From a virus: a stretch of DNA of 44,930 bases. Of the stretch, positions 5,960 through 27,202 are shown piece after piece (within the stretch, counting starts at the first letter, position 1; each line of letters opens with the position of its first letter). The translations under genes and the position numbers were made by a program. The DNA is taken from positions 1 through 44,930 of IMG/VR virus record IMGVR_UViG_3300030328_000378. The stretch is one strand, 5' to 3'. Under the pieces are notes generated by a model that was given only the letters and a program-made list of their open reading frames with translations, was not told where the DNA came from and did no database searches.

Positions 5960-8900
5960 TTGGCTGAGCCAAAAGAATGGTCTCCAAAGATGGATGAGAA
6001 TCAGATTCGAGGAGTCATAGACCAATATGCTAAATTTCCAGAGCTGTTTAATGATAGAGATGATGATTTAGAATCTCTAGAAGAACACGCATATTATTAC
6101 AAAATACCTTTCGCAAGAAGTAAGGAACATCAAGACGGCTATTTAACTCGTATGATTAAACAGGCTGGTCGTGGATGGGCTGAAGGTTTCTCTACGTTAC
6201 CAATGGAAAAAGTCGATGACTTTATTGGTACTGATATAGGTGGAGCCCCAGAAGATACTCACGAAGCGATAGCACGTAACTTAGGTCATCTTGCAGGTTT
6301 TGTAGGTTATTTACCCGGAGCTAAGGCATTAAAGTTTTTAGGTGCTCGTAAAATAGCGGCTGGATTTCAAGCTATTAAAGGTAAGAGTGCTCCAATGTTG
6401 GCGGCTAACTTTGCTCAAAAGAAAGTCGGTAATGTTATTGAACCTTTTATAAAAGACTTACCCGACTGGGCTACTACTGGTGTCTTTGCAGACGCTACTC
6501 AAGGAGCTTTTCATTTAGGTACAGCTAGTGCAGTATCTAGTTGGACTCACGGAGTAGATGAGATGTTTCACGCCGCAGGTTTTGGAGCTGGTGCTGGAGC
6601 AGTATTTAGAGGTATAGGTAACCTTAAAGGATTTGGTGAGCGTTTACAACCTAGTCAATTAAAGCCTAATGGTAGTCCCAATATGAAATTATTAAGCGAA
6701 GGACAGAAGGCTGACCTAGCGGCGAGAACTATGGCAGGTGCCGCTTTTCAAGGTTTACCTAGTACTATACAAGGTGCTACTACAGAAGAACAAGTATACG
6801 CATATGCAATGGGTGCTTTCTTTGGCTATAAAGAAATGCCTTATCAAACTAGAACTAGTAGAGAATTTTTACACGAAAGCATAAAGAACGATAATGGTCC
6901 AGACCCAGAGATGAATCCTCGTTGGGGTAAGATGACTAAGGAAATGAAGGATGTTATCAAGACTGACTTTAGAGAATTTTTTGGAGAAGCAGAGTCTCAA
7001 CATTTAGTATACGACTTAATAAAAGGAAAAGTTGATTTAACGGATATTGAGAAATTAGCTGAAGAATATAGAACGGGTATGGAGATTGACCCTGTTACTG
7101 GTGAAGTGTATTCTAAATCACTTACTAAACAGGAAATAGCAGAGTATAAAGAAGCTTTTATAAAAGACCCTAGATATGATGAATCTCAAGACCTTGATAT
7201 GCACATACAAGATATTGTTGATATTCCCGGAAGGCTAATTGGTAAAGGTGGTTACATAGAACAAGTGTTTCCTGATATTACACCAGTAGATAGAATAAAA
7301 CTGGCAGATAATATATATAAGAAATGGAGTGGGTTACACAATGGAAACACAAAGAAACCGAAGCAGGGAGCAGAGCAAGAAATCGTTAAGCATATTGAAG
7401 CAGAGACTGGGCGAAAGCTGGATGAAAATGAAGTTGGATGGTGGAAACGATGGGCTGAAAACACAAGAAAAAAGCAATGGGTTGAGCAAATTGAGATTAA
7501 AGATGGCGAAGTTGGTATGCTTAATGGTAAGACGAACTCGGTAGGTAATAAAAAAGATTTATCTCAACAGAAAATGATTATAGAAGAAATCTATGAGAGA
7601 AATTATGAAAGCTTATATGGTACAAAGCCACAACAAGAATGGTTTAGAGTATTAGACCACGTTATATGGAAAGATAAAGAGTATGATTTAGGTAGAGCTG
7701 AAACAAATATCGCAAGACAACAGGAAGTTGAAATAAGACTTAATCCTGAGCTTGATGGTATGAAACGTAATGAAATTAAAAAAGCGGCAGAAGCAAACGC
7801 TGAAAGAATAATGGCTGAAAGCTATCGTAAACTTCACGATAAAATGAGAGAAGATGGTTATTATTATTACGGTGGTAAAGGCGATGCTAAGAAAATGTAC
7901 TTTGTTAAATTGCATCCCCTTATTGAAAATAATCCTAAGCTCGTAGGTAAGTTAGCAAAAGAATCTTTAAAGCAATTTAGACTAGCACAGAATAAGAAAT
8001 TCCCAGATAGAGTTACAAAAAATCAAGAAGCTTATTCTGAAAGTTATATAAGATGGAAGAATAGACCTGAAAACGTAGCTTTAAGCGACACAAAAGCACA
8101 GAAGATATATAAAGAGATGTATGTATCTAATATGCTATATGAATTAAGTAACAATGGTTACGAAGTAACAGACGTACCTTCTTTTGGTAAGAACTTTGCT
8201 AAAGTATTAGATGGTGGTAAATATATAAACGACCCTAAAGCATTTAATAAAAGGGCACAGATATGGTTTAACTCTGGTTTATCTGCCAACCCTAGAGAGA
8301 TAGAAGCTTATTTAAAAGAAAGAGGCGTTAACGATTTACAAGGTACAGGAAATAGTCAGAAAAAATTCCGGGTAGGGTTGTTTTCTGAGGCTGATTCTAG
8401 GTTTGAACAAGATAAGATAAAGTTATCTGATGGTGCAGAAGCATATCTTGAAGCATCTGATGGTGCTATACTTGCTAGAGAAGAGGTCATAGATGCCTTA
8501 AATTGGGACAAAGGTCTTCCAACCGATGGGAAGTTCAATAAATCATTTATCGTGTCTAAGGACCCTAAATTAGGAGCTTTATTAGGTAAGTATGGTATGC
8601 AGTTAGCTACACCAGAACTATCAGCTTATATGAAGAAGAGAGGTATACATATGTTGATACCTGATTCTGCGGCTAAACAAGTTGGTGAGCGTAAACAATG
8701 GGTAGGTGAGTTAGACTTAGTTCCTGATTTGATTAATAAGGATATGAAGATAGACTTCACTGGTACACTGTTTAATGTACCTATAAGAGATTTTAGAACT
8801 GTTATGTCTGAAATCACTACACAAAAGTATTTAAAGAAAGTACAGTTACCTAAACAGATGTATTCTGTTTTATCAGCATTTGGATATAAGAATATAAATA

Positions 8901-11900
8901 GAGAATCTATTATGGAGATGTATGACACTCTTTCTAATAGAGCTATAATGGGAACTGAAGAAGGTAAAGCTGTACTAGCAGAATATAAAAACAATAAAAG
9001 TAAAGAAAATATTAAGAGAGTTGTAGATAATATAGAAGAGATACCGATAAATGAGCTATTTGATATATTAAGAAGTCCAAATAACCCTGAGTTATCACAT
9101 AAGATATACGAAAAGATAATGAAATTAAACCACGAATACGTTGCAAGTCTAGCTGAAGAAGGTGAGATGTCACGTAATGAAATGGATAGATATAAAGAAG
9201 GTGTTGCAGATTTTGAAAGCGTAGTTGAAAGATTAAACAGAGTATTCCCAGAGGGTTCTGTGGGTGCCTATATGCACAAGTTCTCTAGAGATTATCGTAT
9301 GCAAGCAATGCGTAATTATGTAGTACAGAAAATCACTAAACCTAAGATTGATAATAGTGCATCATCAAGAATGAGACCTTGGGAAGTTGGATTACAATTA
9401 CCAAATAAAAAGACTTCAGAATTAAGAGATAATCAAAACATATTTTTCCTTGACAATAACTTTAGAGACTTAGTTATTAGAGACTCAATGTTTAAGAAAG
9501 GCAGGATTACCTTAGGAGAGCTGTGGGACACCCGTGCTGATTATAAAGGAGCATTGAAAGAAAAGGTTGACGACATACTGATGGGGACCGTAATGAGAGT
9601 ACCGATGGATTCGATTAGTGGTGCCCACAGCTTAGAATTTGCTGGGTTTACTGGTGTAAAAGGTTATGGAAGTTTACTACATCCTAGAAGTATGAAAGCG
9701 TTAGGTGGTGCTGATTTAGACGGAGATAAAGCATTAATATTCTTTGGTGGAGAGTCTCACGGGTTCAGAAAATCCTGGCGGGAGATGTATGCAAGTCAGA
9801 AAAATGAGTACGTTGATAAAGCTACGAATATGGAGAAGCATAATAAAAATGCTGAAGACCCAATGGATGGTTTAACTTATGGTGAAAAACTTGCTATGAG
9901 GGACCCAGAACTACAAGCTAAAAGTGTTCATCAAACATCTCAATATTCTCCTTACTGGAGAGAGTTTATGAGTAGTGGTGCTTATCAAGGTCGTGAACAT
10001 CTTGGTACTGCTGTTACACAAAGGATGGCTATCTTAGGTGCTTATAATAGTTTAAGAGAGGCTGGTAACAATTATAACTATGATAAAGTTAGAATACGTG
10101 ATAATCAAGGTAATGATGTATTAGACAAGAATGGTAAACCTATATTTGAAAATGTTATAATGGGTAAAGATTTCTATAGTGTACCTTATTATGATTCATA
10201 TGCTAATGGTGGTAAAGGTCAGCTTAGAAGAATATTATTTGAAACTAAAAATACTGAACAAGATTTACAAAGATTTAGAGAAATGTCCAGAGCGGCGATT
10301 GCGTTAGGCTCTGACCCTATGGATGAGATGGGTATTCGTGGTGAGAAGTTTGGTCCTATGATACTTGACACCTTATTTAAATACAAAGTGTTTGATGTTG
10401 TAAAAGGTAAGACAGTTATGACTGAAGGTTCTAAAGCTGAAACTGCATCAGTTAACTCTGGTAGGGCTGATTATCTTAAAAAGAAAGGGTTACACAGTAC
10501 ATTTAATGAGTTAAATAGATTACTATATGGTAAAAATCATAATGATAACAGAAGATGGAACTATTCTGAAATAGCTGGTGGTGTAGAAAAGTTTAACTAT
10601 ATGCCTGCTGAAGCTAAAACTACCTTTCTACCTATGTTATCTAAAAGTATGAGAGGTATTGACTGGTCTGATAATGTATTCAGAAGAGTTAATGAGGGTA
10701 AATTAAATCAAATATACTTTGACCATAGAGAAGCCGTAGGTAAAAGTGACTGGTTAAAAGATGCAATGGGCAGAGAAACAATGTCTACTGTAATGGGTAA
10801 CTTTATTAAAAGAATATATGATAAGAAATTGTATACAAAAGAAGGTTTAGAAGCACTTGCTAATAGTGAAAAAGACTTTGTTGAATTTATAAGTGAAATG
10901 CAAGTAACTAAATTAGGCTTAGAAAAGCCTGTTATGGGACAGATACCCCGCAGTTTTCAACCTATACGTCAGTTTGATTATAACTATAGAAGAGCTTATT
11001 TGGAAAACTTAGTATTAAAAGGAGAAGATTTTTTAATTAACGATATTAGCGATATGGCATCTTTAAAAAGTATTACTGATGTTGTAAACAGAGGTAAGAT
11101 TCCTAGTGAAAGAATATCTGAAATACACGATAAAGTAGATGATATTAAGAATCAATCTGTTTGGAAAGCTAAAGAAAGGAGAAGCTTAGACAATGTCCTT
11201 AACGTCACTGATGCTGATGCTAAACAAAGCAAGGCAGTTAAACAAGCTCGTGAAGCGTTCGGAATTGATGATAAAGGTAGTGCGAAAATTGACCAAGTCC
11301 AAACGGACCAGTTAATACGAGACTACAAGATAAAATTATCACAACCTGAAAAAGACCTATTTGATATGTTATATATAGGTACATATTCTAAAGGTAATAA
11401 AAAGAAATTAGAGGCGGCTATTGAGCTATCTCATATTCCTAATCGTAGAAGAGATGCAGAGTTCTTATTTAAAATGTTAAGAAATACATCTTTAATGCGT
11501 GCTGGTCTCAGTTCTAAAGAAATAAGCGATGCTAGTCTGAAAGAGTTCTTTAACAATTATGAAGCCTTAATGAAGAGAACTAATCTTGAGTTAACTGAAT
11601 CACAGAAAAAGATTCTTACTAGAGAAGTAACGCCAGAAGATGTTACATCTTATAGAGATGAAGCTGGTAATATTGTAAAGAATGAATTAATAGATGGTCA
11701 AAACTTATCTGAAACTGATAGACTATACCTTGATGATATTGCTCCTTTTGTAGGATTACAAGAAGGTAAGATTAAAGACCCTGTACTAAAGCAAACTTAT
11801 TACAATTTAAAAGAACACTTAGACCATTACCATAACTTAGATGTAAGAAATTTAAATGGTTTATTTAGAGGTTTATTTAAGAAGAATTTAAATCAAGCTA

Positions 11901-14764
11901 ATAAAATGGATTTACAAACATTAGATAGATACCTAATGGATATGCGTACTGGTACTTGGTTTCAAAAGACAATGGACTGGATGACTGGTAAATCTAAAAA
12001 CCCTGAAATTAAAAGAGCTTATTATTGGATGTTTCCTAAAGCTATTAATAGAGACTTAATGAGAGAACCAGCAATGATGGAGTGGGTTGAAGATGTTGGT
12101 CCATATAAAGATAAGCTTGGTAATACTATAGAAAACGCTAGAACTGTTAGACCTACTGCTGTTATTGGAGAGATACAACAATTATCAGCACGTACACAAG
12201 AACTTTCTATGCAAACATTTGAAAATGAAGTAGGTGAATTTAGAGACGCATTAAGACCTTATGTATCTGCACTTAAAGATGGCGATGTCTTATTTCAAAT
12301 AGCTGTAGCTCAAAGAGAGCTTGGTTATATGAGAAACAAATTAAGACCTAGATTAAAAGGTTCTTCTTCTAAGTTAACTGAAGCTGAAATGCCTTACATT
12401 GAAAATTGGAACGCTGTTAAGGGCACTTACGATAAAATTAAGGGTGAGCAATACGTTATTCCTCTGGAAGGAGGAAATGTAAAGATGACCGGTGAGCAGG
12501 TTGTTAATAAGATTAATAACATTATTACTAGAGCTAATACAGTTACTCATAGATGGTTACAAGGTAATCAAGAGTCTGTTAATAAATGGTTAAAATTATC
12601 TGAAGATAAAAATGGTAATGTTACTTGGAAAGGATTAGATAAATTAAGAGTAAAGTTTCACGATTACGTTAATGATACTGTACGCCGTAACAAGTCTATT
12701 CCTATTGAAGAGCTTGGTATAGATGGTATTAGACAAATAGCTAAGCGTATACTTATTAGTCAAACTCCGTTTAGATTAAGGAATCCTAAATCACTAGCTG
12801 AACAACGTAGGAACCTAGAGATAGCGTCTTTCGACCCTACTGGAGACTTAGGTGCTGAATACTACTATCCTCATATGTCTTTCAATAGAAAGTTAGCTGA
12901 TAAAAAACTTAGAAGTGCAATTAAAAGAGTTGTAGAAGATTCTACGTTAACACCTGAAGAAATTACTAGAGAGGTAAAGAAGATTAATTACCAGTATAAA
13001 CAACTTACTGGTGACTTTATGGCTAAAGATGAAATGGGTGAAAACTTTGACATAATGCAAGAAGCTTTAGTAGAACAAGCCTCTAAAAAGAAATTAAAAG
13101 AGAAGACTATTTTAGGTAGCAATTTAAAAAAGGTTGGTAATCAATTTAGTCGTGAAGCACATATAGGTGGTTGGGACCTTAATCCAGAAGCTTATGAATC
13201 TTATATGAAAAACGCTATTAATACATTTTATAAACAAGCAATGCAGGTTACTGCAAGAACTGCAATGCACAACTTTAATAATACATTCTATAGAACTACT
13301 AAAGATGGAGACTTAACTGGTGCTTGGATGAATTTCTTTAAACTTTATACTCAAAGTGCTATGGGTTACCCTACACATATACCTGAAAAAGTTATGAATG
13401 ACCCTAAGATGAAGATAAAAGGCACAGCTTATAAGTGGTTAGCTGATAGTACAGCTAAGAAAAGAATTGATTATATGAAGAAAAGATTAGGTGTTGGTCG
13501 TAAAGAGCTGGAAAAATGGAACTTAGATGAAACTGTTATTGATGAATTAAGTGGAACAGAATACACTCAGTTGCAAGGTTGGGGTGCGTTAGAAGCTAAA
13601 TGGCAATTAGCATCGTTATTAGCTCACCCTAAAAGCTCTATTGCTAACCTATATGGTGGTACAGTACACACTTGGATAAGTGCAGGCTATGATAACCTTA
13701 AGAAAGCTAGAGATTTTAACTATCTACGTACAAATATTAATCCTAAATGGAAAAGTATGAAAGATGTTGAAAAATGGATGCAAGAATTAGGTATCATTGA
13801 AGAATTTTTAATTCACGAAGCTGGACTTAATCCTCAACTTAAATCAAAGAAGACTCAAGCATTTGTCAGTGACGCTATTAAGAAGATTAAAAGAGACCCT
13901 AATATGTCTGACGAAAGCTTACTGCAATTAAGTAAAAAGTATGGTTTAACAGACAGAGCATTTGCGGCGGCAAGTTCGTTTATGCGTGTACCTGAAAGAA
14001 TTTTAAGACGTGATTCATTTATGGCTCACTACTTACAAGCAAAAAACAAATTCGGTGGAGCAATCAAGGATTACAACTCGCCATTCCTTATTAATATGGC
14101 GAAGCGTGGCGTTAAGGGAACGCAGTTCTTGTATTCTGCACCGTACAGACCTTTATGGACAAATAGTACTCTGGGTAGGGTGTTCAGTCGTTTCCAGCTA
14201 TGGAGCTGGAACTCCGTTAGGTTCAGAAATGATGTAATAAGGCGTGCATATATTGCAGGGTTTCAAGAAGGTACTCCTGAATTTGAGACTTTTAAAAGAC
14301 TTGCAGTTGCAGATTTATTTATGTTAGGTATGGCTAATATGTTTCAATATAGTTTATTTGAAAACGCATTACCTGCACCTTGGAATTGGTTCCAAGATAC
14401 TGCTGATTGGTTAATGGGTGATGAAGAAGCTAGAGAAAGAGCGTTCTATGGCTCTGCTATAGGTCCTGTTCAAGCAGTAACTCCTCCAGCATTACGTTTA
14501 TTACCACCTATGTTTAAGTGGATGATGAGTGACGATGCTAGTGAATTAACCGATTACTACTTGTGGACCATACCACCATTCGGTAGATTAGCACGGGATA
14601 TAGTAGGACCCGGCGGTATGCTAGAAAATCCCTACTATTCTATAACTAAATTTACTGGTATGCCTGTAATGCAAGCCGCTAAGTTAATAAAAGGTGAAAA
14701 ACCTAAAGCACGCAGAGGTAAATTTGACTACTCAGAGGAGATTGAAGAAGATGCCAATGCCTAA
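5960..14764 (+). CDS. giant virion protein (2934 aa) with double-psi beta-barrel RNA polymerase-like core
   Basis: TTG start after AGGGGGT. Near residue 1252 the chain reads GGADLDGDKALIFF, preceded by MRVPMDSISGAHSLEF and LHPRSM. This follows the order of the multisubunit RNA polymerase beta-prime active site (R-P-T-x-H, LHP, ADFDGDQMAVH), with D1252, D1254 and D1256 as presumed Mg ligands. Upstream, ASDGAILAREE (near residue 834) and K858/K861 could belong to the partner beta-type barrel, as in single-chain enzymes of the YonO and crAss-like gp66 group. Residues 1-240 contain Gly/Ala-rich apolar stretches. The last 500 residues resemble C-terminal regions of large polyvalent phage proteins. 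Residues about 1340-1370 could be a bridge-helix analogue. Size and position among virion genes suggest packaging and injection. The polymerase function is inferred from one strong motif and its spacing. Confidence 0.75.
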   Translation: MAEPKEWSPKMDENQIRGVIDQYAKFPELFNDRDDDLESLEEHAYYYKIPFARSKEHQDGYLTRMIKQAGRGWAEGFSTLPMEKVDDFIGTDIGGAPEDTHEAIARNLGHLAGFVGYLPGAKALKFLGARKIAAGFQAIKGKSAPMLAANFAQKKVGNVIEPFIKDLPDWATTGVFADATQGAFHLGTASAVSSWTHGVDEMFHAAGFGAGAGAVFRGIGNLKGFGERLQPSQLKPNGSPNMKLLSEGQKADLAARTMAGAAFQGLPSTIQGATTEEQVYAYAMGAFFGYKEMPYQTRTSREFLHESIKNDNGPDPEMNPRWGKMTKEMKDVIKTDFREFFGEAESQHLVYDLIKGKVDLTDIEKLAEEYRTGMEIDPVTGEVYSKSLTKQEIAEYKEAFIKDPRYDESQDLDMHIQDIVDIPGRLIGKGGYIEQVFPDITPVDRIKLADNIYKKWSGLHNGNTKKPKQGAEQEIVKHIEAETGRKLDENEVGWWKRWAENTRKKQWVEQIEIKDGEVGMLNGKTNSVGNKKDLSQQKMIIEEIYERNYESLYGTKPQQEWFRVLDHVIWKDKEYDLGRAETNIARQQEVEIRLNPELDGMKRNEIKKAAEANAERIMAESYRKLHDKMREDGYYYYGGKGDAKKMYFVKLHPLIENNPKLVGKLAKESLKQFRLAQNKKFPDRVTKNQEAYSESYIRWKNRPENVALSDTKAQKIYKEMYVSNMLYELSNNGYEVTDVPSFGKNFAKVLDGGKYINDPKAFNKRAQIWFNSGLSANPREIEAYLKERGVNDLQGTGNSQKKFRVGLFSEADSRFEQDKIKLSDGAEAYLEASDGAILAREEVIDALNWDKGLPTDGKFNKSFIVSKDPKLGALLGKYGMQLATPELSAYMKKRGIHMLIPDSAAKQVGERKQWVGELDLVPDLINKDMKIDFTGTLFNVPIRDFRTVMSEITTQKYLKKVQLPKQMYSVLSAFGYKNINRESIMEMYDTLSNRAIMGTEEGKAVLAEYKNNKSKENIKRVVDNIEEIPINELFDILRSPNNPELSHKIYEKIMKLNHEYVASLAEEGEMSRNEMDRYKEGVADFESVVERLNRVFPEGSVGAYMHKFSRDYRMQAMRNYVVQKITKPKIDNSASSRMRPWEVGLQLPNKKTSELRDNQNIFFLDNNFRDLVIRDSMFKKGRITLGELWDTRADYKGALKEKVDDILMGTVMRVPMDSISGAHSLEFAGFTGVKGYGSLLHPRSMKALGGADLDGDKALIFFGGESHGFRKSWREMYASQKNEYVDKATNMEKHNKNAEDPMDGLTYGEKLAMRDPELQAKSVHQTSQYSPYWREFMSSGAYQGREHLGTAVTQRMAILGAYNSLREAGNNYNYDKVRIRDNQGNDVLDKNGKPIFENVIMGKDFYSVPYYDSYANGGKGQLRRILFETKNTEQDLQRFREMSRAAIALGSDPMDEMGIRGEKFGPMILDTLFKYKVFDVVKGKTVMTEGSKAETASVNSGRADYLKKKGLHSTFNELNRLLYGKNHNDNRRWNYSEIAGGVEKFNYMPAEAKTTFLPMLSKSMRGIDWSDNVFRRVNEGKLNQIYFDHREAVGKSDWLKDAMGRETMSTVMGNFIKRIYDKKLYTKEGLEALANSEKDFVEFISEMQVTKLGLEKPVMGQIPRSFQPIRQFDYNYRRAYLENLVLKGEDFLINDISDMASLKSITDVVNRGKIPSERISEIHDKVDDIKNQSVWKAKERRSLDNVLNVTDADAKQSKAVKQAREAFGIDDKGSAKIDQVQTDQLIRDYKIKLSQPEKDLFDMLYIGTYSKGNKKKLEAAIELSHIPNRRRDAEFLFKMLRNTSLMRAGLSSKEISDASLKEFFNNYEALMKRTNLELTESQKKILTREVTPEDVTSYRDEAGNIVKNELIDGQNLSETDRLYLDDIAPFVGLQEGKIKDPVLKQTYYNLKEHLDHYHNLDVRNLNGLFRGLFKKNLNQANKMDLQTLDRYLMDMRTGTWFQKTMDWMTGKSKNPEIKRAYYWMFPKAINRDLMREPAMMEWVEDVGPYKDKLGNTIENARTVRPTAVIGEIQQLSARTQELSMQTFENEVGEFRDALRPYVSALKDGDVLFQIAVAQRELGYMRNKLRPRLKGSSSKLTEAEMPYIENWNAVKGTYDKIKGEQYVIPLEGGNVKMTGEQVVNKINNIITRANTVTHRWLQGNQESVNKWLKLSEDKNGNVTWKGLDKLRVKFHDYVNDTVRRNKSIPIEELGIDGIRQIAKRILISQTPFRLRNPKSLAEQRRNLEIASFDPTGDLGAEYYYPHMSFNRKLADKKLRSAIKRVVEDSTLTPEEITREVKKINYQYKQLTGDFMAKDEMGENFDIMQEALVEQASKKKLKEKTILGSNLKKVGNQFSREAHIGGWDLNPEAYESYMKNAINTFYKQAMQVTARTAMHNFNNTFYRTTKDGDLTGAWMNFFKLYTQSAMGYPTHIPEKVMNDPKMKIKGTAYKWLADSTAKKRIDYMKKRLGVGRKELEKWNLDETVIDELSGTEYTQLQGWGALEAKWQLASLLAHPKSSIANLYGGTVHTWISAGYDNLKKARDFNYLRTNINPKWKSMKDVEKWMQELGIIEEFLIHEAGLNPQLKSKKTQAFVSDAIKKIKRDPNMSDESLLQLSKKYGLTDRAFAAASSFMRVPERILRRDSFMAHYLQAKNKFGGAIKDYNSPFLINMAKRGVKGTQFLYSAPYRPLWTNSTLGRVFSRFQLWSWNSVRFRNDVIRRAYIAGFQEGTPEFETFKRLAVADLFMLGMANMFQYSLFENALPAPWNWFQDTADWLMGDEEARERAFYGSAIGPVQAVTPPALRLLPPMFKWMMSDDASELTDYYLWTIPPFGRLARDIVGPGGMLENPYYSITKFTGMPVMQAAKLIKGEKPKARRGKFDYSEEIEEDANA

Positions 14765-19440: not shown

Positions 19441-19585
19441 TCTTAGTCTCCTTAACTGCATTTTCGATGATTAACTCAAGTTCCTTACGCATACTGCGTT
19501 TATTCTCCTGAGCTCTTTTTTGTAATTTGAGTTTAACCTCTGGGTCAACCTCTGTCTTGACGACTTGTTTAAAGGGAACTGGCAT
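19433..19585 (-). CDS. Arc-like ribbon-helix-helix protein, 50 aa
   Basis: A short gene easily missed because of its length. ATG at 19585 follows CCAAGGAGGCAAA, and TGA overlaps the Gp157-like start. The product fits a ribbon-helix-helix dimer: strand VPFKQVVK (residues 3-10), helix A (15-27), turn NKRSM (28-32) and helix B RKELELIIENAV (33-44). The loop plus ELELIIENA resembles Arc/MetJ repressors. It lies between the primase-helicase (17-base overlap) and the Gp157-like gene (8-base overlap). Probably a transcriptional repressor of phage promoters. The GGTAATTT repeats in the control region near 29744 are one candidate target, by inference only. Confidence 0.75.
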   Translation of the reverse strand: MPVPFKQVVKTEVDPEVKLKLQKRAQENKRSMRKELELIIENAVKETKNG

Positions 19586-21365
19586 TTTGCCTCCTTGGTA
19601 ATCTGAAAGATGGTGTCCAATTCAATTCGACATCGAATAAATCACCATCACTGTTTTTGAATAATGAAACAGTCTTTTCCGTGGAGTCTTGCTTTCCATT
19701 TATACCTATTACTTTACGAGATGCGTTCTCTATCGCACCTGAGCCTTTACCAGCATATATGTCAAGAATTTGATTTCTCGAATACTCTCTGGCTACTTGA
19801 GATATCTGTATAATAATGATATCCATATTGACTGCTAGGTTTGATAAATAATGAGATATATACCTCACTTGTTCATACTCTCCTCGTATATTACCCGGTG
19901 TTTCTACTAAGTCTATGTAATCAACAACCACTAAATTAGGCTGTAAATCACGTATAGTCTTTTGTATCATATCGGGCGTAGGCGAGACTGTTTGTATGTT
20001 TAAATGCTGTAAGTACTTATTGTAGTTCTCACTGACATACTTGTAGTTCGCTGTAACATCGTCTTTAGACATCCCGCTAACAATTTGTTGGTTACGTCTG
20101 TGCATATACCAACCACTAAGTTCTAGTGAAAGAAATAAAGTAGGGATTTGCCATTCCTGTTTTATCTCATCGTTAGCGAAATCATAACCTAAGGCTATGT
20201 TCTGTGCTAAGGCTGTCTTATTAGCACCAGTAGGACCGAATATAGTTACCAGTTCACCCGGATATATATTACAATCTCTATCATTTAAGCCAAACATCTG
20301 TGCAAGATTTATCATCTTACCAGTAAAGTCTGACTCCAGCCTATCTTCTAACTCGCCTTGCAGGTCGTTAGCTGTTTTTATTTCCACTAGATAATCCTTA
20401 TTCTTAAAATGAACACACTTAGGACTACATACCTTTGCTAACAATTCATCGTGACAACCATATTTATATCCATAATTATAGGTACTTTCGACCTTATCTA
20501 TAACTATTTGTGGATTTAGCTGATTATCGTTCCAATGTAGCAATGCCGATTTAGTGGCATCTGATGGTATTCCATTCCGTCTAAAATGTGACGCTATTCT
20601 CAACAAAGTATGATTACGATTACCTTTGTTAGGTCCATCGTTGTACAGCTTTTGTACGCACGGTACGACATTACTAGGTTCGTTAATCTTGTTCATACTT
20701 CTAACTTTAGGAACATTTACTTCAATGTAATCATTTAATGATTCATCACCCCATAGTTCGCTTTGACCAAAGTCAAGACGTCTATCTGATGCTAATTCTA
20801 TTATCTGTTCACACTTATAAGTAAGTAGTTCGGTATCTGTTAAAGGTATTTTAAATAGCGATGATTTCACATTTAGTGTATGTGGTAATCTTATAATGGA
20901 TGTTCTAGTATAAACGGCAGGGTCTGGGTCAAATTCATTTAGTAGCTTCATCATTGTACCCTTTACAATAAAAGGTAAATCTGGGCTAGGTTTAAATCCA
21001 AAGCATTCTGCTGATAAGTCTATGTGATAACCAGTACCACTATAGTATATAGCATAATTGCCATCCTTTAAACTCAATTCCTTATTTAAATAATTAAGGA
21101 TTTGCTGTGTTCTAACCAACGTGTATTCATCTGAGTCTTGACCTCTGTCTATGTCAATAGGCACAGTATTTATATATCTTGTACCGAGAAAGTTCTTTAT
21201 AGAACCATTGGCTTTAATAAATGCTAAAGCCTCATCATCATATCGGTAAACTGACTTATAAACAGCCTGTGTGGCTCCTTGTTCATAAACTATATCCCAC
21301 ATATCATCTAGTGGAACGAGAGTCCCCCGTTTTGAGGGACTCCCGATTGCCATTTCAACAAACAT
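19569..21365 (-). CDS. bifunctional primase-helicase (AEP primase + DnaB-type helicase)
   Basis: A 598-residue protein with two enzymes. N-terminal AEP primase: D71-x-D73 (VPIDIDRG), SGTGYH (residues 109-114) and RLPHTLN (159-165), the usual motifs I-III. A PriCT-like helical region (GNRNHTLLRIASHFRRNG, about 248-265) and a Cys cluster (C304, C313, C317) follow. C-terminal RecA/DnaB helicase: Walker A GPTGANKT (377-384) and Walker B LVVVDYIDLVE. It would prime and unwind the replication fork. It starts at an ATG in a TAATG overlap with SSB and has no SD of its own, so it is translated by coupling. No DNA polymerase lies in this window. Confidence 0.9.
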   Translation of the reverse strand: MFVEMAIGSPSKRGTLVPLDDMWDIVYEQGATQAVYKSVYRYDDEALAFIKANGSIKNFLGTRYINTVPIDIDRGQDSDEYTLVRTQQILNYLNKELSLKDGNYAIYYSGTGYHIDLSAECFGFKPSPDLPFIVKGTMMKLLNEFDPDPAVYTRTSIIRLPHTLNVKSSLFKIPLTDTELLTYKCEQIIELASDRRLDFGQSELWGDESLNDYIEVNVPKVRSMNKINEPSNVVPCVQKLYNDGPNKGNRNHTLLRIASHFRRNGIPSDATKSALLHWNDNQLNPQIVIDKVESTYNYGYKYGCHDELLAKVCSPKCVHFKNKDYLVEIKTANDLQGELEDRLESDFTGKMINLAQMFGLNDRDCNIYPGELVTIFGPTGANKTALAQNIALGYDFANDEIKQEWQIPTLFLSLELSGWYMHRRNQQIVSGMSKDDVTANYKYVSENYNKYLQHLNIQTVSPTPDMIQKTIRDLQPNLVVVDYIDLVETPGNIRGEYEQVRYISHYLSNLAVNMDIIIIQISQVAREYSRNQILDIYAGKGSGAIENASRKVIGINGKQDSTEKTVSLFKNSDGDLFDVELNWTPSFRLPRRQNASSL

Positions 21366-21985
21366 TAGAACGGTGCTGAGTCGTCCGTGCTGTTTGTCAT
21401 ACCACCATTGGCAACTGGTGGCACTACCCCTGCTTCCACCTCTTTGATAAGATTCTTAGACTTCATAAAGTTAATATAACCTTCGATGTCCTTCTTACCA
21501 GTATCGGTGTTAGCTACCAACTTAGGAAATACAGTGGTATATGTCTTGGTAGGGTCTTTACGACCTTGTTCCTTGTACAAATACGCAATGTAATCTGTTG
21601 TTGGGTTAAGAGTATCGGTGACGTGGTTGATATTCAGGTGATTGACTAAGTCAATGCTGTTACCATCCCCATCTACCATCTCTCCTTGTACATTAGGTCC
21701 ACCATCGAAACCGATAGTGTCGAAAAGCCAATAAAGTCTCTTCAATAATGTGCAAGTTTTGATATTGCCGTTAGGTTCTCTGTCAAAAGACCCAGCAAGC
21801 TTCATTTCCTGAGGGTATTGCGAGTCTTCTACTTTTAAAGTAGCAACAAGATAAACATCAGCCCAGTCAAACTGGTCCGATTTATCCTGCCAATCAAGAA
21901 TACCTACGGCACAATATCCTAGCCACTTTGAACCACCTCCAGAAGAAGTGTCAATGTCACTAGGGCGAAAACGAGTATTACTCAT
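21365..21985 (-). CDS. single-stranded DNA-binding protein
   Basis: A 206-residue protein with a beta-rich N-terminal two thirds containing aromatic and basic residues. The C-terminal linker is flexible and acidic and ends in STDDSAPF. That DD-x-x-PF tip is the hallmark of bacterial-type SSB tails, which bind partner proteins. It starts at an ATG overlapping the Sak4-like stop (ATGA) with GGAGGAAGA upstream, and its stop overlaps the primase-helicase start. Position between recombinase and primase fits SSB function. The core differs from the E. coli fold at sequence level, so the assignment rests on the tail and neighbours. Confidence 0.75.
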   Translation of the reverse strand: MSNTRFRPSDIDTSSGGGSKWLGYCAVGILDWQDKSDQFDWADVYLVATLKVEDSQYPQEMKLAGSFDREPNGNIKTCTLLKRLYWLFDTIGFDGGPNVQGEMVDGDGNSIDLVNHLNINHVTDTLNPTTDYIAYLYKEQGRKDPTKTYTTVFPKLVANTDTGKKDIEGYINFMKSKNLIKEVEAGVVPPVANGGMTNSTDDSAPF

Positions 21986-22842
21986 TCTTCCTCCTTGTAT
22001 TTTAGGATTTCGTTAGATATAGCACTATACTCAAACGGGAGTATCTTCTGAGCAAGAGGTTTTAGTCGTGAACCGACTACTCTCTCGTCATACGCCTCAA
22101 ATGAGATATAATACTTTCCATCGTCTTTAGACGCTGTTGTATAACCAATAACGTCAGCTTTAGCGGCTAAGCTATAGCCAAGACCTCGAGGAAGTTCTGG
22201 TGCTAATTGTACCTTTCCGTCTTGCATCTGAGATGTTTTGGAATGACTGACTAACACTAGGTTTCCGCCTTTCTTTTTCATTAGGTCTTGAAAGCGTTTA
22301 AGAACATCTAGGTTTTTACGCCTAGCTTTGCCCCAATCGGCTCCCCATTGACCTTCTCCCATAGCAGTGATTCCTAACTCATTAATGACTGCAAATTCTA
22401 TCCATTCATTAACTTGTCCTATAGTATCAATTACTATGGTGTCATACGGCAAGTTGTCCCACTCTTTAGCAAACCAGTTATATATCTCTATCATAGAATA
22501 TACATCTTGTGGTTTACCTTTATCTTCGCCAGAACGATGCTTAAAGCCACGCTCATTTGAAGGGACGACTTCTTGTTTAGGTTGACCATTTTCAACCACT
22601 TGTTTTCCATCCTTCATTACAGGACGGATAGGTGGGTTCAGACTTGTACAGGTAACTACATTAGCATTGTTAACAAAGTCAGAGCCCAAGTCAGTGTCGA
22701 TGATTATTACACCTTCACTGCCTAGTGGGCTCCACTTTGAAACTGCTGTAGTTTTTCCTGTTTTAGGCTGACCTATGATTAAGTATGTCAATCCCGATGG
22801 CATTGCTGTCCAATCGGTCGAGACTTTCCTTACTTGTATCAA
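21982..22842 (-). CDS. Sak4-like RecA-fold recombination ATPase
   Basis: A 286-residue ATPase: Walker A GQPKTGKTT (residues 24-32), Walker B TIVIDTIG near residue 135, and a sensor-like LVLVSHS near 205. The compact single-domain RecA fold next to SSB and a Gp157-like gene is the usual setting of Sak4 single-strand annealing recombinases. Start is TTG at 22842 with a perfect AAGGAGGT six bases upstream. Its first 80 bases overlap the end of the E1 gene in another frame, an unusually long overlap. Confidence 0.8.
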   Translation of the reverse strand: MIQVRKVSTDWTAMPSGLTYLIIGQPKTGKTTAVSKWSPLGSEGVIIIDTDLGSDFVNNANVVTCTSLNPPIRPVMKDGKQVVENGQPKQEVVPSNERGFKHRSGEDKGKPQDVYSMIEIYNWFAKEWDNLPYDTIVIDTIGQVNEWIEFAVINELGITAMGEGQWGADWGKARRKNLDVLKRFQDLMKKKGGNLVLVSHSKTSQMQDGKVQLAPELPRGLGYSLAAKADVIGYTTASKDDGKYYISFEAYDERVVGSRLKPLAQKILPFEYSAISNEILKYKEEE

Positions 22843-23560
22843 TAGATACCTCCTTACTTGTTACAGGTTTAATTAAAGTACCAAATTCTACCATATTTGG
22901 GTTCAGGCTGGTCCAAATATAGTCATAATATACAAGCTGTGCAACTATATTATATACTTGTGCCAATCCTAATGATACAATATGATTCGTAGCAAAGACT
23001 GTGTGTTTCATACTACAAGGTGCTTGTGGTACAGTATGCGTGGGTACCCAGTGCTTATCATAGACCTCTATGTGAGCTGGAGTGCACGTTACCATCTCTA
23101 CACTAGTGGCACCCATACGCAAGTCAATGAAAAATGACCTATCCCATACAGGATGTGCCCAGTATTCGTGAGCTGTCTCTTTCCATTTGTTGAACACCAT
23201 TCTTCTTGATTCCATATCGTCAGTGCAAACTATCATTTTAGAGGTAATCTTATCGCTTATGCCAAAGTTCTCCATTGGTATAAACTCCTGCCAGTCCTCT
23301 GCGTATCTCTGGAACAACCCTTGAGCTGAATCACGCTTAGCGTTACCACTTTCATCAAGTGGATATGCTGTGGTACTTAAATTATGGTCCTCTATAACGT
23401 CTCCGTCATAACCGATAACTTTGTGCCAACCCATCATAGCTAAACCTTGTATTAAGAATGAGCCAATGCCACCCAATCCTACTACTGATATTTCATTTAA
23501 CTGCTGTAACGGTACTAAATCCTTATTTCTAAGGAATCTTGTTTTTATTTTACTTCCCAC
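22763..23560 (-). CDS. E1-like (ThiF/MoeB) adenylyltransferase
   Basis: A 265-residue Rossmann-fold activating enzyme. The ATP loop is GLGGIGS (residues 28-34). The next strand ends GYDGDVIEDHNL, the E1 D-x-D-x(4)-N signature (D52, D54, N60), with K75 nearby as presumed ATP ligand. VCTDDMESRR (D114/D115, R119) matches the E1 CxD motif, and DLRMG follows. C182 (PQAPCSM) is a candidate catalytic cysteine; no CxxC zinc pair is seen. Start is GTG at 23560 with AAGGAG, inside the end of the upstream gene. Expected role: adenylate the C-terminal glycine of the Ubl at 26764 and pass it to the E2. Dedicated E1-like enzymes in PRTRC, Bil and CBASS systems are the nearest known analogues. Confidence 0.85.
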   Translation of the reverse strand: MGSKIKTRFLRNKDLVPLQQLNEISVVGLGGIGSFLIQGLAMMGWHKVIGYDGDVIEDHNLSTTAYPLDESGNAKRDSAQGLFQRYAEDWQEFIPMENFGISDKITSKMIVCTDDMESRRMVFNKWKETAHEYWAHPVWDRSFFIDLRMGATSVEMVTCTPAHIEVYDKHWVPTHTVPQAPCSMKHTVFATNHIVSLGLAQVYNIVAQLVYYDYIWTSLNPNMVEFGTLIKPVTSKEVSIDTSKESLDRLDSNAIGIDILNHRSA

Positions 23561-23982
23561 TCGACAAACTCCTTTAACATTGCGTGTGCCGCTTCTTCCG
23601 AACCGAACATAGCAACGTCCTTTATGCGTGTAGCTTCTTCGTAAAGCTTATTACGCTGGGTTAAAATACTATTGTTTTCTTTCTGCATATCATCTGCAAG
23701 TTTCTTTTTAAACTCTACATAACCTTTTAACATAGGTTCTATATCAATACTTCCTAATGAACTACCAGACCAAGCTGATTCAGGTCCACTATTTAATACT
23801 AAATCAATCGCTTCCCATATTTTAGCTATTTCTTGAGGGTATCTAATTTCCCCATTAGCCAAGCCCATCTTAGCGATTTCTTTATTACCGGCTGAAGAAA
23901 CATCTTTCAACTCGTTAACTTTCTGTGCAGTGATTTCATCAATCCTATTACAGAAATACTTCTTTTGTGGTACAGTCATCAT
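23545..23982 (-). CDS. helical hypothetical protein inside the Ubl cassette
   Basis: A 145-residue, mostly helical protein with a coiled-coil-like C-terminal half (EFKKKLADDMQKENNSILTQRNKLYEEATRI is spread over about residues 90-120) and an apolar central helix. It starts at an ATG with AAGGAG, after a 294-base non-coding stretch, and overlaps the E1 gene by 16 bases. It has no Cys-rich or enzyme motif. Its place between JAMM and E1 genes suggests a partner, adaptor or substrate of the conjugation system. Function unknown. Confidence 0.7.
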   Translation of the reverse strand: MMTVPQKKYFCNRIDEITAQKVNELKDVSSAGNKEIAKMGLANGEIRYPQEIAKIWEAIDLVLNSGPESAWSGSSLGSIDIEPMLKGYVEFKKKLADDMQKENNSILTQRNKLYEEATRIKDVAMFGSEEAAHAMLKEFVEWEVK

Positions 23983-24019
23983 AACTGTGTTCTCCTTATT
24001 TTATTTATTAAGACAATGA

Positions 24020-24147
24020 AACAATGCTCCCTCCTACTATCCATTGGACGGTGGAGATAACACTTCCGTGTGAGAATGTGATAAAAAACACACTGGGAAT
24101 CAAAGAACTCCTGTGTTCAACTTCATACTTCGGTCAGGAGCATTGTT
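24020..24147. other. candidate structured element, 11-bp closing stem
   Basis: In the gene-free stretch 23983-24276, AACAATGCTCC (24020-24030) is the perfect inverse of GGAGCATTGTT (24137-24147), enclosing 106 bases with shorter inverted repeats (CTCC/GGAG, ACAC/GTGT, GAAC/GTTC). Such a multibranch layout suggests a structured RNA or leader. The strand is not certain. Confidence 0.45.
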
Positions 24148-24170
24148 ATGTATGTGAAAGGAATAATGTC

Positions 24171-24244
24171 GGGGGCTAGGCGGCGGCGTTTAACTCGCTG
24201 TCGTAAATTTGGGATGCGACCAAAATTCAGAGCAACCCAGCCCC
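24171..24244. other. candidate structured element, tRNA-sized three-way junction
   Basis: GGGGCT/AGCCCC closes a 73-base unit. On the plus strand, GCGGCGGCG pairs with CGCTGTCGT through three G-U pairs (24180-24204), and AATTTGG pairs with CCAAAATT. It is tRNA-sized but lacks T-arm and anticodon-arm logic on either strand. The wobble pairs favour a plus-strand RNA, opposite to the surrounding genes. Confidence 0.35.
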
Positions 24245-24276
24245 TTAATCAAATATACACTAAAACATTCATTATA

Positions 24277-25164
24277 TCAATAGAAATTCCTTCCTAGTGC
24301 ATCTATAAACGAATGCGGGTCTATATTTGGACATTTCTTACGGCATTCTTCGATAAAGTCGTGATATGTCATCTCTGCATTCATAAACATTTCGTGCAGT
24401 TCTGTCATTACCTCAGTCTCTTTATCCGATACCTGCGTTTCCCGGTCCCAACTCAATGACTGAGTGTTCCCGTTTTTTTTAGCAGGTTCTTCAGGGGCTT
24501 CTTGTCCGTGGACACCCCAACCTCTACCGTAACCATAGCCACCGTGATAACCACCGAAGGCAGAGATTTGATTAGTCCCAGAGTTAACGTAGGTAATCTT
24601 ATTCTCTTTCTTCTTAGCTTTCTCTATCTTAGTAGCCTCTTGTTTCCATTCCTGTGGAATGTCAACCTTTATAACTGGTGTTATTACTTCACCCTCTACC
24701 AAGTTTGTAAACCCAAACTGGTCTTTATACGTAAGGCAACAATCAAATGGTTCTCCACTTGACGCTACGACTGTACTAAAGAATATACCATCTTTGACGG
24801 CTTGGTCTTTAGCTGTGTCTTTATCTGTCCCTGAAAGGAACGCACCCATAGTATGATGAGAATGTATCAATCCTAAGAAACAGTCCTTTAAATCAGGAAA
24901 CCTTTTATATATCTTGGGTAATAGTTTACCCATAGCGTCTCCGTCTAGTTCTGTTTCTGTTCCGTGACCTAAATGTATAGGCTTAAAGTATTGCAAGCTA
25001 ACTTCAACTGGGAAGTTATCTTCGTCAACCTTATCTATGCTATACCACGCAGGTCCACTCCACTCTACCTTCTTAAACCTAGAAAGCAGATAATTGATTT
25101 TGTTCTGAATCATTTCCGAAATGTGTATCTCGAACTTTGATTCGCTTGTGCTTGTCTGTTGCAT
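24277..25164 (-). CDS. JAMM/JAB-family metalloprotease of the Ubl cassette
   Basis: A 295-residue protein with a complete JAMM zinc site: E34 (KVEWSG) and H101-S-H103-x7-S111-x2-D114 (HSHHTMGAFLSGTDKD). JAMM proteases cleave after the C-terminal glycine of ubiquitin-like proteins, either maturing the precursor or removing conjugates. The C-terminal third is Gly-rich (FGGYHGGYGYGRGWG) followed by a helical tail. ATG at 25164 has GGGAGG upstream and lies inside the E2 gene, an 86-base overlap. It probably trims the Ubl tail (SG|LA) and/or reverses conjugation. Confidence 0.9.
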   Translation of the reverse strand: MQQTSTSESKFEIHISEMIQNKINYLLSRFKKVEWSGPAWYSIDKVDEDNFPVEVSLQYFKPIHLGHGTETELDGDAMGKLLPKIYKRFPDLKDCFLGLIHSHHTMGAFLSGTDKDTAKDQAVKDGIFFSTVVASSGEPFDCCLTYKDQFGFTNLVEGEVITPVIKVDIPQEWKQEATKIEKAKKKENKITYVNSGTNQISAFGGYHGGYGYGRGWGVHGQEAPEEPAKKNGNTQSLSWDRETQVSDKETEVMTELHEMFMNAEMTYHDFIEECRKKCPNIDPHSFIDALGRNFY

Positions 25165-26680
25165 TTAACAACCTCCCTGAGCTGTAGTTATGAATTGCTT
25201 TGGTGTAATTCTCGATACCAATACTGGTGAAATGGTCACAATACTTCGTCAATGTTTCACCTTTATTCATATCCTCTTTAAAACCACGCACAAAGTTGAT
25301 TAGACCTTGTGTTTGTTTGTATGAATCACTCTCGTTAAGAAATGAGGAATCTCCATCATAAAGACTGATGAATGTTCTCATTGCCTCAAAAGGAACGAAC
25401 AAATCGTCCTGCATTCTACCCAGATACCAAGCAATGTCTTTCTTGGCTGTGTCTTCATCTATCGCTCTTTTAAATCTATCGCCTGTAACATTGTTAACTA
25501 TTCTCTGGTATGCAAAGATTTGTGTCCAGTCTATTGATGTCTCATCGTCATTACTTCTCGTAGTGCACTTGTGTTTACCATCATCAATACACCTTTTGAT
25601 TAACTGAGTGGGTGGTGGCATACTGCTACCTGACCTATACCAAGGCTTAGTTAAATACATCTGTGGTCTAGATGTCAATGCCTCGGTTGCTAATGCAGAG
25701 TTATATGGGTCTGGTGTACCCAATGCTGTTTTAATCTGGTCCATAGAAACATAGTATATGTCGTTCATAAAGTTGAAAAACCTATCTGTCTGTTTAAATA
25801 GCTCATCCTCTGTATCTTTCTCAATATAAGTATTTAGCACACTTCCGTAATACAAATCCATTAACCTTGGTGCCCAAGTATTATCGAAATCATATAACGA
25901 TGCGAATCCTATACCTTGATGTTCATTAGAGATTAACCAGCGTGAAAAGTTTCCTCTTCGAGGTATTCTGCCATCATTACCAGAGTACTTATAGTCTCTA
26001 GTTGCTACAGTATACCATAACTGCTTATTAGCCATATATGTCCCGAAAGACATACCACTCTTAAACCACGCTGGTAGTCTACGATAATCTCCGTATACCG
26101 AATTGATATTCCAGAAGGCATCGTTTGACGTCCAAGTATTTAAGAATGATTTAGCAACATTTACCAGTGAAGGTATATGTCCACCTGATATAGCTGAAGA
26201 CCAAGCTCCTGCCCATCCACCTAAACAAGGCTCACCAGATTCCCCGATATGAGGATGTGCTGGTATATCACAACGTAATTGTGTTGAACCTTGAAACATT
26301 AGTTGATGAGAGTTTTCAGGTCTCCAAGCTTTCATTTGTGACTGCATTAGCTTGTCAAATATAGGTGAACCTACATCATCGCCAGATAACACTAGTCTTA
26401 CATCAGTTGGGTGAAGGTTGTTAAATAATAAGGAATGAGAAGGTAGAGTATAATTAACGGTACCCCTGAACTTAGGTTTACCAACTCTTACCAGAAATTC
26501 CTTTCTTTTAACACCATCTCTGTTAACAAACTCCCAAGTATGATGTATATCGCACTTTTCCATTAGGTGGGCGGCGAACTCCCTTGCTTCCTTATGGTCC
26601 CAGCCAGTTTTGTTCTGGTAAATCCAGTTGGCTTTGACCCATTCGGTCACATACTGTTTGATTTTCATCAAGTTGCTCAT
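25079..26680 (-). CDS. E2-like (UBC-fold) conjugating enzyme with long C-terminal extension
   Basis: A 533-residue protein with a striking E2 active site: H142-P143-H144 ten residues before C152, then CLGGWAGAWSSAIS. Classical E2s have HPN ten residues before the Cys, then CL, then WS-x-A eight to eleven residues later, so spacing and residues agree (HPN is HPH here). This makes C152 the likely thioester cysteine. Residues 1-135 supply the earlier beta-sheet of a UBC fold. Residues about 200-533 are unassigned, rich in Trp and Tyr. SD AGGAG precedes the ATG. It is one of the largest genes of the arm and overlaps the JAMM gene by 86 bases. PRTRC-B/Bil-type E2 proteins are the nearest known class. 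Confidence 0.85.
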   Translation of the reverse strand: MSNLMKIKQYVTEWVKANWIYQNKTGWDHKEAREFAAHLMEKCDIHHTWEFVNRDGVKRKEFLVRVGKPKFRGTVNYTLPSHSLLFNNLHPTDVRLVLSGDDVGSPIFDKLMQSQMKAWRPENSHQLMFQGSTQLRCDIPAHPHIGESGEPCLGGWAGAWSSAISGGHIPSLVNVAKSFLNTWTSNDAFWNINSVYGDYRRLPAWFKSGMSFGTYMANKQLWYTVATRDYKYSGNDGRIPRRGNFSRWLISNEHQGIGFASLYDFDNTWAPRLMDLYYGSVLNTYIEKDTEDELFKQTDRFFNFMNDIYYVSMDQIKTALGTPDPYNSALATEALTSRPQMYLTKPWYRSGSSMPPPTQLIKRCIDDGKHKCTTRSNDDETSIDWTQIFAYQRIVNNVTGDRFKRAIDEDTAKKDIAWYLGRMQDDLFVPFEAMRTFISLYDGDSSFLNESDSYKQTQGLINFVRGFKEDMNKGETLTKYCDHFTSIGIENYTKAIHNYSSGRLLNATDKHKRIKVRDTHFGNDSEQNQLSAF

Positions 26681-26718
26681 TGCGACTCCTATTTAATTTA
26701 ATCTTTTACTCTCTTCAT

Positions 26719-26750
26719 CAGTGGGGAACCCTTGCGAGTCCCCCTTACTG
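26719..26750 (-). promoter_or_regulatory. stem-loop between Ubl and E2 genes
   Basis: On the minus strand CAGT-AAG-GGGGA pairs with TCCCC-ACTG around an 11-base loop, in the 83-base spacer between the Ubl stop and the E2 start. It could attenuate or protect mRNA so that Ubl exceeds E2. No U tract follows, so full termination is unlikely. Confidence 0.45.
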
Positions 26751-26763
26751 AATCTCTATTCGC

Positions 26764-26970
26764 TTACGCTAGTCCTGAAGTTACCTTATCAGTCACGAAT
26801 GCAACGAAATCATCATCTCTGAGATTTGTATTAGCTTCCGCTTTCTTTGCGTTCACGTTAATTGTGGTGTTGTCTAATGACATACCCAATGCTTCAGCTA
26901 ATCCTGCTGGATTGTCTGCTTCCATTGTCTTCACTACACCACCAAAGGTCTGTACTAGTACTTTTGCCAT
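26764..26970 (-). CDS. ubiquitin-like (beta-grasp, ThiS/MoaD-like) protein
   Basis: A 68-residue protein with AAGGAG eight bases before its ATG. Two N-terminal strands (KVLVQTFG, VVKTMEA), one helix (NPAGLAEALG) and a C-terminal half INVNAKK...LRDDDFVAFVTDK follow the order of ThiS/MoaD and prokaryotic Ubl proteins, where an N-x-x motif and D-D-x-V-x-F precede the C-terminal glycine. It ends VTSGLA: a glycine followed by two residues, which a JAMM protease could remove. It lies directly after the AT-hook gene and upstream of E2, JAMM and E1, which is the strongest support. Likely the modifier attached to target proteins. Confidence 0.75.
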   Translation of the reverse strand: MAKVLVQTFGGVVKTMEADNPAGLAEALGMSLDNTTINVNAKKAEANTNLRDDDFVAFVTDKVTSGLA

Positions 26971-26971
26971 A

Positions 26972-27202
26972 TTAGGCTCCTTTGACGTTAAGAGGTTTTG
27001 AAGATTGCTTACGAGGACGTCCTCTCTTGGGCTTGTTCAATGCCGTAGCCCTACCATTCTCTAAAGCAAGTTCTAATTCATTCAATTTGAATGTTATACC
27101 GTTTAATCTACGTTGGTGTGCTCTTATCTGATACCATAAGGCATTAGTTGCACGTTTCCAAGGCATAAAGATATACTTTATTATTCGTACTATTTTTCGC
27201 AT
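26972..27202 (-). CDS. small basic protein with AT-hook
   Basis: A 76-residue protein with SD AAAGGAG. The N-terminus is a short hydrophobic/basic helix (VRIIKYIFMPWK). The middle is a helix with mixed charge (LNELELALENG), and the tail holds KPKRGRPRKQ, a typical AT-hook (GRP core) that binds the minor groove of AT-rich DNA. Its stop is one base before the Ubl start, so it forms the front of the Ubl operon. It could recruit the conjugation system to DNA or be a substrate (many lysines). Both ideas are inference. Confidence 0.65.
   Translation of the reverse strand: MRKIVRIIKYIFMPWKRATNALWYQIRAHQRRLNGITFKLNELELALENGRATALNKPKRGRPRKQSSKPLNVKGA

Follow-up and report, generated by a model that had tools for sequence, protein, structure and literature searches.

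Does a phage that carries the genes of a ubiquitin-like protein (Ubl), an E1, an E2 and a JAMM protease side by side run a protein-tagging pathway of its own, and what would it tag? Bacterial ubiquitin-like conjugation is known mainly from host genomes and plasmids, and several such systems defend against phages. The question is raised by a marine phage, IMG/VR virus record IMGVR_UViG_3300030328_000378, the whole of which (44,930 bases, linear) was analysed here and is referred to as the window. An earlier, sequence-only reading of this DNA had proposed that the phage carries its own E1-E2-Ubl-JAMM pathway, and this proposal now finds good support in sequence conservation, the order of the genes, their predicted folds and the spacing of the active sites. 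The cassette probably represents a phage-encoded, reversible Ubl conjugation pathway within a replication operon that is near-core to a large lineage of phages. Sequence comparison and structural models support the components, their active sites, a processed or bare glycine end of the Ubl, a conserved order and co-inheritance, and we infer thioester transfer, conjugation and a target.

The cassette comprises five open reading frames (ORFs) on the minus strand at window positions 22763-26970, all exactly where the sequence-only reading had placed them. Upstream of a Sak4 gene, the order of transcription is a 76-aa ORF, the Ubl, an E2-like protein, the JAMM protease, a 145-aa helical protein and the E1. 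The conserved 76-aa ORF (26972..27202, minus strand) is directly upstream of the Ubl, which it adjoins in most relatives. The residues that had been singled out are also present: a Ubl of 68 aa, HPH and C152 in the E2, E34, HSH, S111 and D114 in the JAMM protein and GLGGIGS in the E1. The second E1 motif exists as well, but it had been written one residue too short and actually reads D52-x-D54-x-x-E57-D-H-N60. Comparative data come from about 200 loci, nearly all of the relatives being metagenomic contigs.

The only Pfam family matched by the Ubl (26764..26970, minus strand) is ThiS, below threshold (0.095), and 17 of 26 Ubl relatives show the same sub-threshold match. The AlphaFold2 model is a confident beta-grasp with the order beta-beta-alpha-beta-beta (predicted local distance difference test, pLDDT, of 86), and the best PDB matches found with Foldseek are SUMO, ubiquitin, TtuB and Mth1743 (probability 1.00), model and search agreeing on the beta-grasp fold. 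The Ubl is also the slowest-evolving gene of the cassette, since comparison with locus L001 reveals nine codons that differ, all synonymously, and no amino-acid change.

The C-terminus of the Ubl is particularly informative. In 36 full-length viral loci, an invariant K-V-x-S-G (KV(T)SG) is followed by 0-3 residues, these tails being LA, SK, S, C, LV, K, SCS, N, R or nothing, and further relatives add A, LTA, LSQ and SIALA. Altogether, 24 kinds of C-terminal stretch were found, and the full-length ones all consist of SG and then 0 to about 6 residues. Remoter Ubls terminate exactly in NNKVGG or KTGG, or in GGAA, SGIVS or KSGG followed by SY, C or SSC; in the crAss-like group, most members carry 110-140 residues after the SG and others just a few. 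The window Ubl has Gly66 (codon 26773-26775) and then the two-residue extension LA. Given that an invariant glycine with a variable or absent tail is the pattern expected of an active end with a disposable extension, Gly66 is the predicted functional C-terminus.

The E1 (265 aa; 22763..23560, minus strand) has a ThiF-type adenylyltransferase fold and scores above the Pfam cut-off for ThiF (E=3.7e-9). When its profile was compared with PDB sequences, only members of the E1/ThiF superfamily were retrieved (the NEDD8, ubiquitin, SUMO and UFM1 E1s, ThiF, MccB, PaaA and Cap2). The Rossmann adenylation features (GxGGIG, DxD, Asn, Lys, Asp and an N-terminal Arg) are present, most of these residues occurring in 78-84 of 84 sequences, and C182 (codon 23015-23017), K75, D114 and R119 are conserved in all 84, down to the crAss-like phages. 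It is a short, single-domain enzyme devoid of CxxC zinc motifs that reaches no cut-off of a named family, scoring 27.6 against the required 159 bits for the ThiF equivalog and 12.3 against 376.6 bits for MoeB.

The JAMM/JAB metalloprotease (295 aa; 24277..25164, minus strand), the start of which overlaps the end of the E2 gene, falls just below the cut-off of Pfam Prok-JAB (E=2.9e-4). It displays the complete JAMM/MPN+ zinc motif, with E34 upstream of H101-S-H103-x7-S111-x2-D114 (24823..24864, minus strand); S111 and D114 occur in 82/82 sequences and H103 in 79/82. Of 117 distinct ORFs, 102 preserve the whole motif, and the other 15 are short or split pieces that stem from contig ends and insertions. 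The protease is catalytically intact also in loci where the Ubl ends in a bare glycine (L020, L023, L105, L114, L175, L177 and L181). A role in maturation only is thereby ruled out, and JAMM must have a task beyond it, deconjugation being the natural second one. The helical partner (145 aa; 23545..23982, minus strand), recognisable by the motifs MTxPQKKYF..RID and ATRIKD..MFGSEE, is a real gene as had been proposed, but it is absent in some relatives and dispensable there.

The E2-like protein (533 aa; 25079..26680, minus strand) consists of a UBC-like region (approximately 41-206), a hypervariable, all-helical region (207-514) and a disordered, conserved tail. It has the HPx-x7-C-x7-W arrangement of the E2 superfamily in the form H142-P-H144-x7-C152-x7-W160 (26201..26257, minus strand). 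HPH, C152 and the following L153-G154 are invariant in 37/37 distinct homologues, and W160 is found in 33/37. In a UBE2W-family enzyme, the corresponding residues are HPH83-85, Cys93 and Trp101, so that HPH instead of HPN and the offsets of 10 (His-Cys) and 8 (Cys-Trp) are shared with the phage protein (PMC4630614). When the UBC-domain profile was run against 177,635 PDB sequences, the top two matches were both UBE2W (E 0.024 and 0.031), with HPH..CL..WS aligned. The predicted structure (pLDDT 83) gave a single coherent PDB cluster, weakly matched, which consists of the UBC-fold UEV domains of TSG101/Vps23. Each of these lines is modest, and it is motif spacing, UBE2W ranking and UEV fold match, taken together with the gene partners, that make an E2 the best reading of this protein. 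There is no measurable homology to human UBE2W or UbcA1 beyond the core, and the phage E2 differs from them by its 310-aa helical C-terminal region and its ThiF-type partner E1. According to PMC4630614, HPH is a signature of the Ube2w family alone. UBE2W is known as the E2 that places ubiquitin on N-termini (PMC9527308), so that tagging of N-termini or of other non-lysine groups is a possibility open to test.

The regions of the E2 evolve at different rates. Region 41-206 has stayed similar among relatives (20-79% identity, 20-59% outside the closest ones), and the helical region 207-514, which could act as a substrate reader, retains 9-40% outside the closest relatives and 9-20% in most. The last residues are conserved again: the disordered tail (EQNQLSAF, window 25082-25117, minus strand) has a QxxhxxF end in 30/45 distinct proteins, although the adjoining helical region is too diverged to be recognised, and is a possible counterpart of the clamp-binding or PIP-box peptides that it resembles. 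The E2 profile also matched BUD31 among PDB sequences (E 0.004), on the helical region, and this match was judged to be a composition artefact of the coiled region.

Several observations weigh against a complete conjugation pathway. The sequence-only reading had staked itself on UBC and ThiF profile matches and on conserved catalytic residues; the ThiF match was found and the residues are conserved, but no UBC profile match is significant, the best being borderline (UBE2W, E=0.024), and none of 29 E2 members matches the UBC family of Pfam. The UEV/UBC fold match is weak (probability 0.82, E 0.38, TM 0.43 to the target). In addition, the E1 has neither the catalytic-Cys nor the ubiquitin-fold domain of its eukaryotic counterparts, the window Ubl has a single terminal glycine (SG, not GG) and no E3 is recognisable. 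Independently of these points, Pfam, PHROGs, NCBIfam and PADLOC offer no named family for the E2, the Ubl or the helical protein, and a tblastn search with the E2 against 50,697 phage records returned 0 matches.

In relatives found with the Ubl, E2 or E1, the same gene order, which the sequence-only reading had suggested looking for, is fixed from ORF76 through Ubl, E2, JAMM, the optional helical gene, E1, Sak4 and SSB to the primase. A second survey was seeded from the primase-helicase in order to avoid the bias of these seeds, and contigs with enough upstream sequence all have E1, and JAMM where covered, except L178-L180. Moreover, the pairwise distances of the four cassette genes track those of the primase (Mantel r 0.77-0.91, 0/500 permutations, 28 loci). 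On account of this primase-seeded occurrence and correlation, sequence comparison indicates that the cassette is near-core and vertically inherited in the phage lineage and is no sporadic cargo. L178, L179 and L180, in which the same Sak4-SSB-primase block stands without the whole cassette, are natural controls for its role.

A scan of bacterial and archaeal genomes with the Ubl found none, and one with the E1 found only remote ThiF-like matches and one phage-like contig. In a Patescibacteria metagenome-assembled genome (MAG), an E1-like gene is followed by a 70-aa Ubl-like ORF ending in KNGG (L200, 8992-9948), possibly a separate cellular Ubl system. A contig labelled as a Verrucomicrobia MAG (L208, 6603-9657) holds genes for an E2-like protein with HPHISNNDFCLGG, JAMM and E1 beside HNH-like and SSB-like genes, and is likely a phage in a bacterial bin. 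In L175, L177, L181, L183, L199, L070, L075 and L083, the E2 position is taken by divergent proteins that show an HP[YF]-like motif and, behind an insert of variable sequence, a conserved Cys; the Ubls paired with such proteins end in bare GG or in KSGG plus up to 3 residues.

In the pathway that we favour, JAMM would trim the 0-3 residue tail of the Ubl and expose Gly66, which the ThiF-type E1 would adenylate with ATP, probably passing the Ubl through Cys182. The E2 would then take the Ubl as a thioester on Cys152 in its HPH active site and transfer it to an amino group of a target recognised by its fast-evolving helical part, from which JAMM would remove it again. Most likely, the Ubl is reversibly attached to a protein of the phage or its host, and the replication fork may be where this happens. 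Because the gene neighbourhood points there, the target may be a phage or host replication or recombination protein, a suggestion that we make tentatively. The possible link to DNA replication or repair, already raised by the sequence-only reading, draws only on this very stable neighbourhood and on the possible clamp-binding tail. It is unlikely that a broad set of tailed phages, the crAss-like gut phages among them, runs a SUMO- or ubiquitin-like fork switch, in which a UBE2W-type (HPH) E2, recruited by its conserved tail, would modify replication proteins with one Ubl each, at the N-terminus or a lysine, and JAMM would remove it, as with PCNA and its partners in eukaryotes.

Other functions have to be weighed against this conjugation pathway. 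The Ubl might be a ThiS/MoaD-like sulfur carrier activated by the E1 for thiocarboxylate chemistry, such as nucleotide or tRNA thiolation, with no protein being tagged. The ThiS-like sequence of the Ubl (17/26), the TtuB and Mth1743 fold matches and the ThiF size of the E1 are in line with this idea. However, sulfur carriers need no E2, and wherever the contig spans the locus, members of the main clade have an E2-like protein with invariant HPH and Cys; the flanking genes include no recognised sulfurtransferase or thiolation enzyme, and the ThiF and MoeB family cut-offs were not reached. We therefore give this possibility very little credence. A modification of structural proteins during morphogenesis, resembling the lambda-type Ubl/JAB pair but with real conjugation, is suggested by the occurrence of Ubl and JAB pairs among phage tail-assembly genes (PMC1779556). 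It is nevertheless quite improbable, given that the cassette belongs to the minus-strand replication operon and not to the plus-strand structural arm, is linked to Sak4, SSB and primase in the whole lineage and has counterparts beside primase, uracil-DNA glycosylase and nuclease genes in crAss001.

Two further explanations involve conflict. The sequence-only reading had considered that the pathway counters a defence of the same kind, by feeding on, mimicking or reversing a Bil- or CBASS-type conjugation of the host. Conjugation systems of hosts attach Ubls to virion parts and to defence proteins (Hor et al. 2024; Jenson et al. 2023; both as cited in PMC13288928), and the E2 diverges very quickly in its helical part (9-40% against 20-59% identity for the UBC part, outside the closest relatives), as in conflict genes. 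Such genes are usually sporadic and located in variable regions, whereas the cassette is near-core, keeps a fixed order and is inherited together with the primase, and PADLOC models recognise nothing but the ThiF fold of the E1. A counter-defence role is thus disfavoured and appears unlikely. Alternatively, the pathway could sabotage competing phages during superinfection, as Bil-type conjugation keeps other phages from assembling (Hor et al. 2024, cited in PMC13288928). Accessory cargo would be expected in that case, and a cassette that is near-core among replication genes makes it very improbable.

How does this phage cassette, as a reversible conjugation pathway, relate to known systems? 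In Bil (BilABCD), as here, separate Ubl, E2, JAB and E1 genes form one operon, and the JAB processes a Ubl precursor to its C-terminal Gly (PMC11354881). BilA has two beta-grasp domains, BilB a downstream CEHH and BilD inactive and active adenylation domains plus a Cys domain (PMC11354881); in contrast, the phage-borne set has one Ubl domain, an upstream HPH and a 265-aa single-domain E1, none of the three Bil features being found. The PRTRC or type 6d operons of Iyer et al. 2006 likewise unite Ubl, JAB, E1, E2 and an alpha-helical protein, but the 6d E2 is without the upstream His (PMC1779556). PRTRC models stayed far below their cut-offs (PRTRC_ThiF 24.0 against 144.75 bits, PRTRC_A 12.6 against 101.8 bits). 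Type II CBASS combines a ThiF-fold E1 with E2 and JAB functions in Cap2/Cap3, and Cap2 is among the E1 profile matches; E1 and E2 are, however, fused in Cap2 and separate in the phage. No CD-NTase was recognised near the cassette, and the E1-E2 models of PADLOC align with no more than a portion of the E1's ThiF fold and do not match the phage E2. Phage lambda TAPI/TAPK offers a phage Ubl domain with a terminal Gly and a JAB, but in a structural operon and with no E1 or E2, and for phages this Ubl/JAB pair of lambda-type tails is all that the accessible part of the 2006 survey mentions (PMC1779556). A phage-encoded E1-E2-JAB-Ubl operon was not reported in the literature searched, which covered a minority of subscription papers and no bioRxiv preprints, and this absence does not prove novelty. 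Since the defining features of Bil, PRTRC-type and CBASS modules are missing despite a like mode of working, the cassette is set apart from them: judged by its sequence, it is a prokaryotic Ubl conjugation system, but phage-borne, replication-linked and with a UBE2W-like E2 signature.

The closest counterparts in named phages are gp76-gp79 of crAss001 and those of Flavobacterium phage Fpv1. Homologous E1 (31% identity, E 1e-15) and JAMM genes occur there in the same order, with an upstream beta-grasp-like protein bearing KSG or KSGG and a Cys protein in the E2 position. Their neighbours include a uracil-DNA glycosylase gene in both phages and a primase gene in crAss001. Their Ubl often has a C-terminal extension of 110-140 aa, unlike that of the window, and their E2 candidate another motif, YxHSH..C-x-G. 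The homology of E1 and JAMM is solid; position and motif suggest the Ubl and E2 candidates, the latter also through a weak fold match to a crAss-like protein in BFVD (probability 0.84). The E2 link stays a suggestion because hhalign finds no significant homology with the window E2 (3.8 and 12.7%). Interruptions of the JAMM gene occur in some crAss-like and Flavobacterium phages (L006, L039, L041, L052 and L064), just before the catalytic HSH codons in L006 and by a group I intron in L041 (5504-5763; Rfam E 1.4e-14). An HNH-like gene separates the Ubl from its extension in L040 (3689-4892).

The gap between the JAMM and helical genes contains a conserved structured RNA, folded as a three-way junction (24158-24246, minus strand). 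Its closing stem shows compensatory changes, GGGGCU/AGCCCC in the window being replaced by GUGGGUUAAG/CUUAACCCAC in L004, GGGCACGG/CCGUGCCC in L141 and GGGCAUGG/CCAUGCCC in L135. A conserved stretch reads GGUUGCUCU, and AGUUGCUCU in L004. The element has no match in Rfam.

In the middle of the genome, HNH/endonuclease VII, Gam-like, primase-helicase, SSB-like and Sak4 genes form an operon on the minus strand. The replication block at 19569..22842, always downstream of the cassette, comprises the Sak4-like ATPase (21982-22842), an SSB-like protein (21365-21985) and the primase-helicase (19569-21365), with PHROG and Pfam matches in the block. The end of the SSB-like protein, DDSAPF, resembles bacterial SSB C-terminal tips; the protein itself has no PHROGs or Pfam match. 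On the plus strand, terminase, portal and capsid genes lie in the right part and long unassigned genes with a weak tape-measure match in the left part; an ORF of 2,934 aa at 5960-14764 has no PHROGs match.

With its homologous E1 and JAMM genes in cultured crAss001 and Flavobacterium phages, a complete pathway would provide a phage system in which targets could be sought. An E1-E2-JAMM set as small as this one, with its rare HPH active site, may also help to study how an E2 chooses between lysines and N-termini. Bacterial Ubl conjugation has so far been studied mainly as host machinery, several forms of which are anti-phage. If the reading proposed here is true, phages would use protein tagging for their own cycle.

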